Below are positions 2 through 4,935 of a stretch of DNA of 64,000 nt, one piece after another; the first letter of the stretch is position 1, and each line of letters opens with the position of its first letter. The stretch lies in the NCBI GenBank assembly GCA_019638285.1, contig JAHBUB010000003.1, positions 1 to 64,000 on the forward strand, in the 5' to 3' direction. The stretch comes from Cyclobacteriaceae bacterium. GTDB lineage: Bacteria > Bacteroidota > Bacteroidia > Cytophagales > Cyclobacteriaceae. Below the pieces are notes generated by a model. It was given only the letters and a program-made list of their open reading frames with translations. It was not told the DNA's origin and ran no database searches. The position numbers and the translations under genes are program-made.

Positions 2-187
2 GGATACGACCAAGGGCCAGAAGAAATGGGCGAACAAATCGAAGCGTTTTTAAAAGAGGGATTGGTAAATATTATAGGTGGTTGTTGTGGTACTACTCCG
101 GAGCACATTCAAGTGATTGCAGAGTTGGCATCTCAATATAGTCCAAGATTAATTGTGAATGATCAACAAACAGTCCATAGTCCATAG
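2..187 (+). CDS. metH: Homocysteine-binding half of split methionine synthase (C-terminal fragment)
   Basis: The window opens inside this gene, so only the last 61 codons are visible. They contain GGCCGTTP at about codons 26-33 of the visible part. This is the conserved Cys-Cys zinc-site segment at the end of the homocysteine S-methyltransferase barrel. The protein would bind zinc and homocysteine and pass it the methyl group from methylcobalamin. The stop codon at 185-187 lies inside a repeat (176-224), so the last few residues (after about codon 57) are encoded by repeat DNA. The pterin, cobalamin and activation modules follow in a separate gene at 648. The split is therefore real in this genome. 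I recall a two-gene MetH as common in this phylum, so it need not be a mutation. The homocysteine-domain identity is confident from the motif and the neighbour. Confidence 0.85.
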   Translation, partial: GYDQGPEEMGEQIEAFLKEGLVNIIGGCCGTTPEHIQVIAELASQYSPRLIVNDQQTVHSP

Positions 188-224
188 TCAGTCGATTGCC
201 TGTCGTATGTGACTATGGTCTATG
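176..224. repeat. Long hairpin at the left end of the cassette
   Basis: CATAGTCCATAGTC (176-189) and GACTATGGTCTATG (211-224) form a 14-bp stem with one mismatch and a 21-base loop. The stem includes the last codons and stop of the upstream metH fragment. It could weaken read-through into the following genes or act as the recognised cassette end. Confidence 0.65.
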
Positions 225-268
225 AACCAATTAAGTTTTAACCAACCGATCAATAAAACGATTATTTT

Positions 269-622
269 ATGGCATTTAAATTTGAAAAACTAAAGGTGTG
301 GCAAAGTGCGATTGAATTATCTGGTGAGATTTCAGAGTTGACCGATAATTTTCCCAAAAAGGAATTATTTATCTTAACATCTCAAATTCAGCGGGCGTCC
401 GATTCAATTGCATTAAATATTGCAGAAGGATCAACTGGACAAACCAATCCAGAATTCCGGAGATTTTTGTCATTTGCACTTCGATCCGGAATAGAAGTTG
501 TTTCATGCATTTATGTTGCTAAGAGAAGGAAGTTGATAGATCAACCTCAATTTGATTACTTCTATAACTATTTAACGGAATTGATAAAAGGAATTCAGGC
601 ATTAAGGAACTCCATCAAGTAA
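269..622 (+). CDS. Four-helix-bundle protein (S23/IVP family)
   Basis: A 117-aa protein with the hallmarks of the four-helix-bundle family first known from intervening sequences in bacterial 23S rRNA. It has an N-terminal FEKLKVWQ segment, a central Q..RAS.SI.LNIAEG segment at about residues 40-55, and a following F.RFL..A..S. helix. The length is typical for the family (about 110-125 aa). The family forms pentameric helical bundles with a basic surface and its cellular role is not settled. Here it is not in an rRNA gene. It is wedged between the two halves of metH inside a repeat-bounded unit (173-664). No signal peptide or membrane segment is seen. The ATG at 269 fits the family N-terminus. 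Family call is confident; function unknown. Confidence 0.88.
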
Positions 623-647
623 AGATAAAGCTGATTTGCAATCGACC

Positions 648-3329
648 ATGGACAATAGACTACTACAACTAAGCGGATTAGAAGCTGTAATAATAACTCC
701 GGAATCAAACTTTACAAATATTGGGGAGCGTACCAACGTGACTGGTTCCGCCAAATTCCTTCGTCTTATAAAGGAAGGAGATTTTGAAAAGGCACTAGAG
801 GTGGCGCTGGATCAGGTAAGAGGGGGCGCACAGGTGATTGATGTAAACATGGATGAGGGGATGCTGGACAGCAAAGAAGCCATGGTTAAGTTTTTAAATC
901 TCATGGCAGCTGAACCCGAAATCGCCAAAATTCCGGTGATGATCGATTCATCAAAATGGGAAGTGATTGAAGCGGGGCTGAAATGTTTGCAGGGAAAGGG
1001 GATTGTGAATTCCATCAGCATGAAGGAAGGAGAGGAAGAATTCATCCGACAGGCGAAATTAGTGAGAAGGTATGGCGCTGCTACCGTAGTGATGGCCTTT
1101 GATGAGCAAGGACAAGCGGATACTTATGAAAAAAGAATTGCCATTTGTCAACGGGCTTATCGCATTTTAGTAGACCAGATTAAATTCCCTCCATCCGATA
1201 TTATTTTCGATCCCAATATTTTTCCAATTGCCACAGGGATTGACGAACATAGGAATTATGCCGTTGATTATTTTAGAGCTGCCAAATGGATAAGAGAAAA
1301 TTTACCAGGCGCACATGTTTCAGGTGGGGTGAGCAATGTTTCATTTAGTTTCCGTGGAAATCAACTGGTGAGAGAAGCCATGCACTCCGCATTTCTTTAC
1401 CATGCTATACAACACGGTATGAACATGGGAATCGTCAATCCTACCATGCTCGAAGTGTATGATGAGATTCCAAAAGACTTATTGGAACGCGTAGAAGATG
1501 TGTTGCTCAACAGGAGAGAAGATGCTACTGAGCGGCTGTTGGATTTTGCTGAAACGGTGAAAGGATCTGCAAAGAAAAGAGAAACTGATGACAGTTGGAG
1601 GCAGGGCACCATTCAGGAAAGGATAACCCACTCGTTGGTAAAGGGAATAATCGACCATATAGAAAAAGATACGGAAGAAGCCCGCCTGATGTATGATAAG
1701 CCATTGGAAGTAATTGAAGGGCCATTGATGACAGGCATGAATGTGGTGGGAGACTTGTTCGGTGCCGGTAAAATGTTTTTGCCACAGGTAGTAAAGAGTG
1801 CGAGGGTAATGAAAAAGGCGGTAGCCTATCTAACGCCTTATCTGGAGGAAGAGAAACGAAGAAGTGGAAATACAGGACAGCAGGCTGCAAAGGTATTGCT
1901 AGCCACAGTGAAAGGCGATGTACATGATATCGGTAAAAATATCGTGGGGGTAGTGCTGGCTTGCAATAACTACGAGGTGATTGATTTGGGAGTGATGGTG
2001 CCTTCAGAAAAGATACTGGAGACGGCCAGAAGAGAAAAGGTAGATATGATTGGCTTAAGCGGCCTGATCACTCCTTCGCTGGACGAGATGGTGCATGTGG
2101 CCAAGGAGATGAAACGCGAAAAAATGGATTTGCCATTACTGATTGGTGGCGCTACGACTTCACGCATTCATACTGCCGTTAAAATTGATCCTGCATATGA
2201 TGGAATTGTGACTTATGTGTTGGATGCATCAAGAAGTGTACCAGTGGTCAGCGAACTTATGAATCTCCCTGCGAGAGAAGATTTTAAGACAAGAGTTAAG
2301 AAAGAGTACGTTGACTTAAGGGCCGATCATGAAAAGAAGCAAGAGATAAAAAACTATATTCCGCTGGTTGAAGCCAGAAGAAACAGAGTGGATATTAATT
2401 GGGAAGCCACGAATGTAACTACTCCCTCTTTTTTGGGGACGAAACAGCTTATCCAATATCCTTTAAAAGAAATAAGAAAATTCATTGACTGGACACCCTT
2501 TTTCCAAACATGGATGTTGGCGGGTAGGTACCCTGGTATATTAGAAGATAAGGTGGTGGGCGTGGAAGCAAAAAAATTATTTGATGATGCACAACGTATG
2601 TTGGATGAGATCATTCAAAATAATTCGTTGCAGGCAAGTGGTGTGATCGCATTTTACCCTGCCGCTTCCACTGAGGATGACAATGTAATCCTGTACACCG
2701 ATGAGAATAGGGACAAGGAGTTGAGTCGTTTTCATTATTTACGTCAGCAAAACAAGAAAGCAGCTAAGCTTCCCAATTTCTGTCTTTCCGATTTCATTGC
2801 TCCTGTTGATTCGGGGAAGAAGGACTACATAGGCCTTTTTGCTGTTACTGGAGGAATCGGACTGGAAGGGCTGTTAGAAAGATATAAAGCGGACCAAGAT
2901 GATTACTCTGAGATCATGGCCAAATCGCTTGCGGACAGACTTGCTGAAGGTTTTGCGGAACTGCTCCATGAAAAGGTGAGAAAGGAGTTTTGGGGCTATG
3001 CGGCCGATGAATCTCTTTCTGATGAGGAGCTCATAAAGGAAAAATACGAGGGCATTCGGCCAGCACCTGGTTATCCGGCCTGCCCTGAGCATACTGAGAA
3101 GGGCATACTTTTTAACTTGTTGCAGGCAGAGAAGATCGGAATGAAATTAACAGAATCATTTGCCATGTACCCGGCTGCTGCGGTAAGTGGATTTTATTTT
3201 TCGCATCCTGACTCAAAATATTTTGGATTGGGTAAGATCAGTAAGGACCAAGTGGCAGACTATGCGAAACGAAAGAACATGACGGTGGAAGAAGCTGAGA
3301 GGTGGCTGTCACCCAACTTGGCATATTGA
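648..3329 (+). CDS. metH: Methionine synthase, folate/cobalamin/reactivation modules
   Basis: This 893-aa protein carries the second to fourth modules of cobalamin-dependent methionine synthase. The methyltetrahydrofolate-binding barrel begins at [11 protein letters not shown] (about residues 24-34). The cobalamin domain has DVHDIGKN, where His426 would be the lower axial ligand of cobalt. The S-adenosylmethionine reactivation domain has [15 protein letters not shown] near residue 805. It ends with the usual [12 protein letters not shown] region. The homocysteine module is in the gene ending at 187. An in-frame TTG at 636 is possible, but the ATG at 648 is preferred because the family homology starts at about LSGLE. 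That ATG lies within the right terminal repeat of the cassette at 173-664. The enzyme feeds on the methyl-folate made by MetF at 3813. Confidence 0.95.
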
Positions 3330-3340
3330 TATTGATGGTT

Positions 3341-3384
3341 CACGCAAAGGACGCAAAGTAAATACACGCAAAGACCGCGAAGTA
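3341..3384. repeat. Tandem direct repeat at left cassette end
   Basis: CACGCAAAGGACGCAAAGTA (3341-3360) is repeated at 3365-3384 as CACGCAAAGACCGCGAAGTA, with a 4-base spacer. The second copy runs into the ATG of the GxxExxY gene at 3384, so the repeat forms its entire leader. Confidence 0.75.
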
Positions 3385-3761
3385 TGGATGAAAATGAGTT
3401 ATCATATAAAATAATTGGTGCGGCACTTAAGATGCACACCACTTTGGGACCAGGATTATTGGAGTCTGTTTATGAAACAGCATTAGCTCACGATTTAATT
3501 GAATTCGGATTAGCAGTAAAGAAGCAGACTGCACTTCCTTTTGTTTATAAAGATATTAAAATGGATGCAGGCTTCAGAATCGATTTATTGGTTAATGACA
3601 TGGTGATTATTGAAATAAAATCCGTTGACGTATTAGCTCCCGTTCATTTCGCCCAGACATTGACTTATTTAAAGCTTTCGGATTTAAAGCTAGCATTACT
3701 TATAAATTTTAATGTAAAATCACTAAAAGAAGGAATTCACAGAATCGTCAACAATTTGTAA
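3384..3761 (+). CDS. GxxExxY protein
   Basis: A 125-aa protein with the family signature GPGLLESVYE at residues 22-31 (G, E and Y in the GxxExxY spacing). Later strands IDLLVNDMVIIEIKSVD resemble the catalytic core order of a PD-(D/E)xK nuclease-like fold: D at about residue 68, and the E-I-K of IEIKS near residues 76-78. That fold link is an inference from pattern, and no activity is established from sequence here. The family is short, multi-copy and scattered in Bacteroidota. The gene lies between metH and metF inside a unit with nested inverted repeats. The ATG at 3384 gives the usual MDENELSYKIIGAA start. It has no signal peptide. Confidence 0.88.
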   Translation: MDENELSYKIIGAALKMHTTLGPGLLESVYETALAHDLIEFGLAVKKQTALPFVYKDIKMDAGFRIDLLVNDMVIIEIKSVDVLAPVHFAQTLTYLKLSDLKLALLINFNVKSLKEGIHRIVNNL

Positions 3762-3812
3762 TTAGCGGACTTTGCGAAAAAAACTTTGCGTCCTCCGCGT
3801 GAAAAGAAGAAA

Positions 3813-4783: not shown

Positions 4784-4928
4784 AAAAAAAAGGAGGCTGT
4801 CTCAAAAGTTACAAAAGGAGCGCTTTTCTGAGCGATAGCGAAGAAGCTTTCGTTATTTAGACCTTAAATAAGGGATGTTTCGCTATCGCTCAACAAAACG
4901 GAATACTTTTGAGACAGCCTCTTTTTTA
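4784..4928. mobile_element. MITE-like palindromic element
   Basis: About 145 bases form nested inverted repeats. The outer arms are GAGGCTGTCTCAAAAGT (4793-4809) and its exact complement at 4905-4921, flanked by A-runs on the left and T-runs on the right. The middle arms are GAGCGATAGCGAA (4830-4842) with TTCGCTATCGCTC (4879-4891). The inner arms are TTATTTA (4853-4859) with TAAATAA (4865-4871). No coding capacity is seen. The GGCTGTCTCAAAA end is of a kind I recall from insertion-sequence termini, so a non-autonomous element is likely. Because it lies between convergent genes with A/T-runs at both ends, it may also serve as a two-way terminator. Confidence 0.65.
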
Positions 4929-4935
4929 TTAAAGT

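Follow-up and report, generated by a model that had tools for sequence, protein, structure and literature searches.

The 64,000-nucleotide stretch of DNA analysed here (the window) opens contig C23 (JAHBUB010000003.1) of a Cyclobacteriaceae genome (GCA_019638285.1; 3.98 Mb in 85 contigs), and between the two methionine synthase genes metH1 and metH2 it holds one small four-helix-bundle gene of the S23/IVP family, at positions 269-622 of the forward strand. This gene and its borders probably make up a minimal mobile cassette, one of a family whose members measure around 0.4-0.6 kb and each have one four-helix gene, which typically lies between inverted arrays of heptamers. The best reading of the window cassette is that it is the free-standing counterpart of the intervening sequences (IVSs) of rRNA. 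The case is built from sequence comparisons, namely the arms, their period and locus specificity, the placement of the cassettes, their presence and absence with empty sites, and the repeated use of the same gaps.

Regarding the gene itself, its 117-aa product matched PF05635 (111.3 bits against a cut-off of 33.8, E 3.3e-32) and TIGR02436 (105.7 bits against 24, E 1.4e-30), which agrees with the family given in the original prediction, and its open reading frame (ORF) is indeed the only gene between the metH1 tail, whose stop codon lies at 185-187, and metH2. The structure model (predicted local distance difference test, pLDDT, 96.4) matched 2gsc with a template modelling (TM) score of 0.95, and also 2rld; 2gsc (Xcc0516) is described as a homopentamer in the accessible part of PMC4990558. 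The distant structural matches were Avd of diversity-generating retroelements (DGRs) (4dwl, TM 0.77, E 0.41) and a DGR ribonucleoprotein (8ube, TM 0.78, E 0.62). Across 192 loci, 112 from the genus and 80 named ones, the residues Q39, R42, S46, E53 and E76 were conserved in 96-99%, and Q39, E53 and E76 each in at least 98%.

Four-helix genes gave 175 matches across the 36 genomes of the genus, and 34 of these genomes were positive. We went down the score list and examined 115 loci, leaving out around 60 mostly lower-scoring matches; the loci skipped by hand include copies in the metH gap that were already covered, copies broken by a stop codon and copies at contig ends. These loci yielded 118 ORFs, and the 112 with 300 nt on both sides were used (the stop-broken locus L122 is counted twice among them). 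The window copy is outside this set because its contig begins too close. With mispaired arms as the reference, the inverted arm score passed the 95% point in 76 of the 112 ORFs and the 99% point in 52, and in the direct orientation the corresponding numbers were 13 and 7. When 49 control genes of the window were measured against these cut-offs, two were above the 95% one and none above the 99% one, with two in the direct orientation. When only one copy per site was kept, the ORFs being grouped into 39 sites by the likeness of both neighbours, about 27 sites were above the 95% point and 20 above the 99% point (direct orientation, about 4). Furthermore, the own partner arm ranked first for 37 of the 112 and within the top five of the 112 arms for 71. 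In the named set the inverted arms exceeded the 95% point at 31 of the 80 loci and the 99% point at 10, with 20 and 8 in the direct orientation; the cut-offs of this set were raised to 35 and 45, because a heptad similar to RGTCNAN is common to the arms of different loci.

The genome of the window has six four-helix genes, each of which, as judged by eye, has a separate pair of inverted arrays around it. The arm scores of the other five copies were 34, 33, 27, 43 and 26 (L002, L003, L005, L006 and L007), and all five have ends different from those in the window, so that the expectation of the same end sequences around them was not borne out. The left arm of the window cassette, at 172-199 on the forward strand, is the heptad array AGTCCAT AGTCCAT AGTCAGTCGATTGC, and the TAG stop codon of metH1 falls within it. 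The right arm, at 638-664 and inverted with respect to the left one (reverse strand), has the heptads ATCGACC ATGGACA ATAGACT (641-661) and includes the ATG at 648-650, a possible start of metH2. These ends had been described as inverted repeats with nine perfect inner bases and a good match beyond; the nine inner bases of the two 27-nt ends are perfectly complementary, but the ends as a whole match less well than described, only 11 of the 27 positions being identical without gaps. The best gapped alignment scored 24, a value matched by 24 of 2000 mono-nucleotide shuffles (p about 0.012), and under a milder mismatch penalty it scored 26, matched by 81 of 2000. A repeat search gave the arms as 172-189/644-661 (18 nt, 83% complementary). 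An inverted heptad copy inside the left end, at 210-227 on the reverse strand, is 89% complementary to 173-190, and this local hairpin, which also appears in the predicted RNA fold, is stronger than the end-to-end arms of the cassette. Taken alone the window ends are marginal, and it is the family-wide layout that makes them convincing.

The flank autocorrelation at lags 7, 14 and 21 exceeded that of the controls. Arrays on both sides with a score of at least 9 had period 7 at 67 of the 192 loci and period 8 at 17, each of the other periods (4-6 and 9-12) being found at 0-1 loci, and the array length peaked at 4-5 units. The GxxExxY genes (PF13366) of the genus, for which we took 36 loci out of 105 matches and used 35 ORFs, are also flanked by inverted arrays, with another period. 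With a score of at least 7 on both sides, the four-helix ORFs showed lag 7 in 53, lag 8 in 8 and lag 9 in none of the 112, and the GxxExxY ORFs showed lag 8 in 8, lag 9 in 9, lag 10 in 3 and lag 7 in none of the 35; these lags blurred our first guess that the GxxExxY units were exactly 9 bases long. The inverted arms of the GxxExxY ORFs scored above 23 in 30 of the 35 and above 30 in 17, with 19 above 23 in the direct orientation, and 18% of the mispaired controls also exceeded 23 because end types are shared between loci. Just 10 of the 35 were above the 95% point of their own set (34), and therefore we rejected the idea that these arms are as firm as those of the four-helix genes. We also considered stop codons as the cause of period 7, which is coprime to 3, so that three TAG-bearing units would stop all frames. 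This idea was dropped because arm types such as GTCCGGAA, GGTTACC and GGGAACA carry no stop codon (seen by eye, uncounted).

The arms are also related to the protein they enclose. Between unrelated sites they were alike in 4-6% of the pairs at a protein identity below 40%, and at an identity of at least 70% (36 pairs) 47% of the left and 56% of the right arms were alike, the rise being clear only from about 50% identity upwards. In comparisons within the same site, the own partner arm fitted better than the arms of other copies in 66 of 91 cases and worse in 24, with one tie. Together with the period, the likeness of arms among similar proteins and the better fit of the own partner suggest that the arms move along with the protein and are constrained by it, and that a change in one arm goes with a change in the other.

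Regarding the placement, both neighbours were co-oriented with the four-helix gene in 106 of the 112 cases, taking as neighbour the longest open frame in the adjoining 800 nt or so; among the window genes the number was 29 of 49, a somewhat different count that was made on ATG-initiated ORFs. Where the arms were above the cut and the neighbour was readable, the distance from the upstream stop codon to the start of the left arm was at most 40 nt in 67 cases out of 74. The GxxExxY genes of the genus lay between co-oriented genes in 29 of the 34 cases with readable neighbours.

The metH gap had been proposed as the place for a comparison with relatives. It was readable in 34 genomes of the genus and held the gene in seven of them (G000, G009, G010, G025, G028, G029 and G035), a truncated piece in two (G014 and G034) and no four-helix ORF in the other 25, among which G004 and G031 kept heptad arrays in the gene-free gap. 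The view that the cassette splits MetH into two halves had to be given up, since metH1 and metH2 are separate genes in the cassette-free gaps too, and in several of these genomes (e.g. G017, G020 and G026) they nearly touch. In the protein tree, 21 of the 27 metH-gap tips, which include some loci fetched twice, fell in a single 23-tip clade (support 0.94). This clade also holds G051, which belongs to another family, and therefore the insertion appears to be old and often lost; rather than being fresh, the window copy probably goes back to an old insertion that was lost many times. The metH-gap copy of G028 grouped with the copies of another site (support 0.97), and constraining all the metH-gap copies to one group cost about 93 log-likelihood units in FastTree, which points to a separate entry into the same gap. 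Two other gaps are also reused. In the window the gap after metH2 is occupied by a GxxExxY cassette, and in G025 by a four-helix cassette, there followed by metF. The cysD-cysN gap holds one of the own-genome copies (L006), and its occupants in G026 and G033 belong to another clade.

Clean empty sites were found as well. The identity of G007 and G035 is 97-99% at three loci and 95% at metH2, and between murE and mraY G007 holds a four-helix cassette of 418 bases where G035 has a single base, with flanks 98.8% and 91.6% identical. Between mraZ and rsmH there is a cassette in G025, and the site is empty in G010 and G011 (flank probes 94-98% identical, longer flanks about 90-91%). The flanks of another site, L148, gave no match in G007, G013, G024 and G033, so that no empty-site reading was obtained there. 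These absences and empty sites, together with the inverted arms of the 112 ORFs, agree with the original prediction of a small repeat-bounded cassette without a transposase, and its mobility is further backed by the separate insertions into one gap and by relatives in metagenome-assembled genomes (MAGs) of other phyla. Two further observations concern the same gaps: G009 appears, by eye, to have a remnant of a cassette between mraZ and rsmH, and at metH the whole junction differs between G035 (L018/L296) and G007 (L020/L295), including the codons beside the cassette.

The free-standing form had been regarded as unusual. Actually, the family was present in 157 of 198 Bacteroidota genomes, drawn at a completeness of at least 90%, with up to 16 copies per genome. 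The closest named relatives of the window protein come from Cyclobacteriaceae MAGs (85% and 83% identity), and those in MAGs of other phyla from Omnitrophica (67%), Thermodesulfovibrionales (64%), Auribacterota (61%) and another Omnitrophota (56%). The Thermodesulfovibrionales copy (L215, 930-1940) lies inside a regular array of 37-nt repeats with spacers, with the repeat on both sides, which by eye is like clustered regularly interspaced short palindromic repeats (CRISPR-like); the repeats adjoining the cassette look incomplete on both sides. On plasmids we found matches in 22 records, 17 of them cyanobacterial and all below 60% identity. Six of the 22, all cyanobacterial, were read, and their arm scores were 30, 56, 46 and 60 (L279, L280, L281 and L282) and at most 19 in the other two. 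On an Anabaena plasmid the four-helix gene (L280, 1477-1845) lies, with GGTGACA heptad arms, between the annotated cas6 and cas4. Phages gave no match at E 1e-5 in 50,697 records.

Heptads also occur without the gene. A scan of the own genome for window-like heptads with at most 2 mismatches gave 11 matches, the two ends of the window cassette included, against 4 for the reversed control, and the GTCNAT heptad of the window cassette recurs as inverted pairs on C14, C29 and C78 at loci without a four-helix gene, in gaps that lie between co-oriented open frames. Intergenic inverted heptad hairpins without an ORF were seen at L283, L284, L292 and L289 (C14, C29, C78 and C23:121 kb).

A mobile cassette of this kind might work as follows. 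It settles at the stop/start junction of two co-oriented genes, in their direction, and it would be transcribed from the promoter of the host operon. The four-helix protein would most likely recognise the arms, and a pentameric ring that reads one heptad per subunit is a plausible picture. Arms and protein may suffice for movement together with host enzymes, which could be a nuclease, replication or a reverse transcriptase. A wider version of this reading, which we put forward tentatively and consider rather doubtful, is a new class of mobile elements in which the mobility protein, outside the known recombinase families, would be an Avd-like ring. This ring would recognise arrays of short repeats, the protein determining how long the unit is (7 for the four-helix proteins and 8-10 for GxxExxY), and it would work with host enzymes at co-oriented junctions. 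In this wider version the rRNA IVSs would be copies that became trapped in rRNA, and the cyanobacterial heptanucleotide hairpins would be gene-less derivatives.

Several points weigh against a mobile cassette. No recombinase was found and no movement was observed; the sole gene-like ORF of the window cassette is PF05635. No arms above the 95% cut were present in 36 of the 112 ORFs. There are 5 duplicate locus pairs in the sets, and without them period 7 was found at 66 and period 8 at 16 of 187 loci. The rank correlation between arm similarity and protein identity is small (0.08 and 0.06 over 17126 pairs); moreover, at least 13 of the 36 closest pairs share the locus L245, and 9 of the 36 are without a comparable flank, 27 having both. 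Co-orientation could come from selection after insertion instead of targeting. The copies of other phyla come from MAGs, in which contigs may have been mis-binned. The metH copy is mostly inherited within one main clade, and the difference between G035 and G007 at metH looks like allele replacement by recombination. No clean target-site duplication was resolved at metH, murE-mraY or mraZ-rsmH; by eye a 4-bp GAAC duplication is possible at murE-mraY, where the right flank is just 91.6% identical.

Among the other explanations, that of an intervening sequence of mRNA, although unlikely, survives best. Here the arms would pair in the operon transcript and be maintained for that RNA stem, RNase III would cut the stem and free the cassette, and movement might go via RNA. 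The protein family is the same as in the 23S rRNA IVSs, and the IVS of the Coxiella 23S gene, according to the accessible part of PMC4990558, has a 28-bp terminal stem, is cleaved in vitro by RNase III and carries tandem heptamers ahead of the S23 start. The co-orientation in 106 of 112 cases and the Avd-like fold would also suit it. Nevertheless, differences between the two arms that keep the pairing as G-U in the sense RNA were fewer than those that break it, 58 versus 79 in the genus and 52 versus 80 in the named set. Furthermore, the window cassette had no advantage in folding over its shuffles (z -0.86, with 18 of 100 matching it), and the predicted fold holds the local left hairpin and no long closing stem. 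Selection for an RNA stem is thus unsupported as what maintains the arms, both in the test of G-U against A-C differences and in the comparison with shuffles.

The heptad hairpins themselves could be primary, either as expanding simple repeats or as elements like the short tandemly repeated repetitive (STRR) sequences of cyanobacteria, with the four-helix gene as a passenger that entered hairpins already in place by recombination. We consider this improbable. ORF-less heptad hairpins do exist in the own genome and, in G004 and G031, at the metH gap, and intergenic hairpins of period 7 are known in cyanobacteria from the available text of PMC2670836. However, a passenger would not be expected to have more similar arms around related proteins at unrelated sites, nor a period that follows the protein family, and the remnants with a decayed ORF in G014 and G034, and by eye in G009, suggest that hairpins can derive from cassettes.

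The third possibility is a host gene for regulation or defence that is kept in operons, with arms that control its own expression or that of a neighbour. The 39 sites with different neighbours make this quite improbable, as do a gap that can hold either a four-helix or a GxxExxY cassette and the frequent absence and decay, even though the ORF is strongly conserved (Q39, E53 and E76) and lies nearly always between co-oriented genes. Finally, an ordinary gene of ancestral origin that has a palindrome by chance would fit the modest score of the window ends and the fact that the metH-gap copies are mostly in one clade, but it is contradicted by the 25 of 34 readable metH gaps without the gene and 2 more with a truncated one, by family arms far above the controls and by the further empty sites at murE-mraY and mraZ-rsmH, and is hardly credible.

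With regard to known systems, the mobile cassette proposed here shares with the rRNA IVSs of Coxiella and Leptospira the protein family, a length of about 0.43 kb and terminal inverted repeats. In the Coxiella IVS the part of PMC4990558 available also describes tandem heptamers beside the S23 start, with a copy number that varies between strains. The combination of inverted repeats and heptamers around an S23 ORF is present at the level of our family and modest in the window copy. Unlike those elements, the window cassette lies outside rRNA, between the protein genes metH1 and metH2; there are several copies per genome whose array sequence differs from locus to locus; and the ORF is conserved, whereas that of Coxiella is described in the same source as decaying. 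The STRR sequences of cyanobacteria are also intergenic 7-bp tandem repeats able to form hairpins, and some four-helix genes of cyanobacterial plasmids have such arms (GGGAACA in L282 and GGTGACA in L280); STRRs are described without a gene, as far as the available text of PMC2670836 goes, and the arrays here bound one.

Insertion sequences and miniature inverted-repeat transposable elements (MITEs) are similar in their terminal inverted repeats, scattered copies, empty sites and ORF-less forms. In contrast to insertion sequences, the cassettes have no transposase, the ends differ among the six own copies and there is no clear target duplication. A MITE would not carry the ORF, although the three ORF-less hairpins with a similar heptad would fit. 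Judging by this locus only, the cassette differs from integron gene cassettes, being a single cassette between metH1 and metH2 and not part of an array beside an integrase gene, and from DGRs, the neighbours being metH1 and metH2 instead of a reverse transcriptase or a template repeat. Avd of the DGRs is alike in fold (4dwl), and the resemblance of PF05635 to Avd is noted in the accessible part of PMC10053308. The GxxExxY genes have co-oriented neighbours and inverted arrays of short units in the genus too, but their protein is of the PD-(D/E)XK nuclease superfamily, the period is 8-10 and a few end types are shared between loci.

Among the matches listed in the open-licence PubMed Central literature, we found no description of free-standing four-helix cassettes bounded by heptads. 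No explanation exists so far for the widespread genes labelled as 'four helix bundle protein' or 'S23 ribosomal protein'. If they are both the gene and the recognition factor of minimal mobile cassettes, three old puzzles could be tested together: the S23 gene in rRNA IVSs, the origin of intergenic heptanucleotide hairpins, and spread without a transposase. Protein and repeat also form a compact pair, in which the period of the repeat goes with the protein family.

As for the other features of the window, metH1 is represented by the 3'-end of its homocysteine-binding half (2-187, forward strand), cut by the contig end because the window begins at base 1 of the contig; it was named from reading the sequence and from its position before metH2, with no family scan. 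metH2, with the pterin-binding, B12-binding and activation domains, extends from 648 to 3329 on the forward strand; its ATG at 648 was our choice, and the ORF list gives a TTG at 636. The second cassette, after metH2 (3339-3803, forward strand), has the same layout, with the GxxExxY gene at 3384-3761 between inverted (A)CGCAAAG-like arrays. Its arms (3339-3359/3783-3803) are 90% complementary in the repeat search, and its arm score (L010), 34, equals the 95% point of the GxxExxY set without exceeding it. Lastly, the stretch at 4785-4930 is partly self-complementary (GGAGGCTGTCTCAAAAG ... CTTTTGAGACAGCCTC); we found no other copy of it in the genome, and therefore it is perhaps a terminator-like palindrome and not a repeat family.

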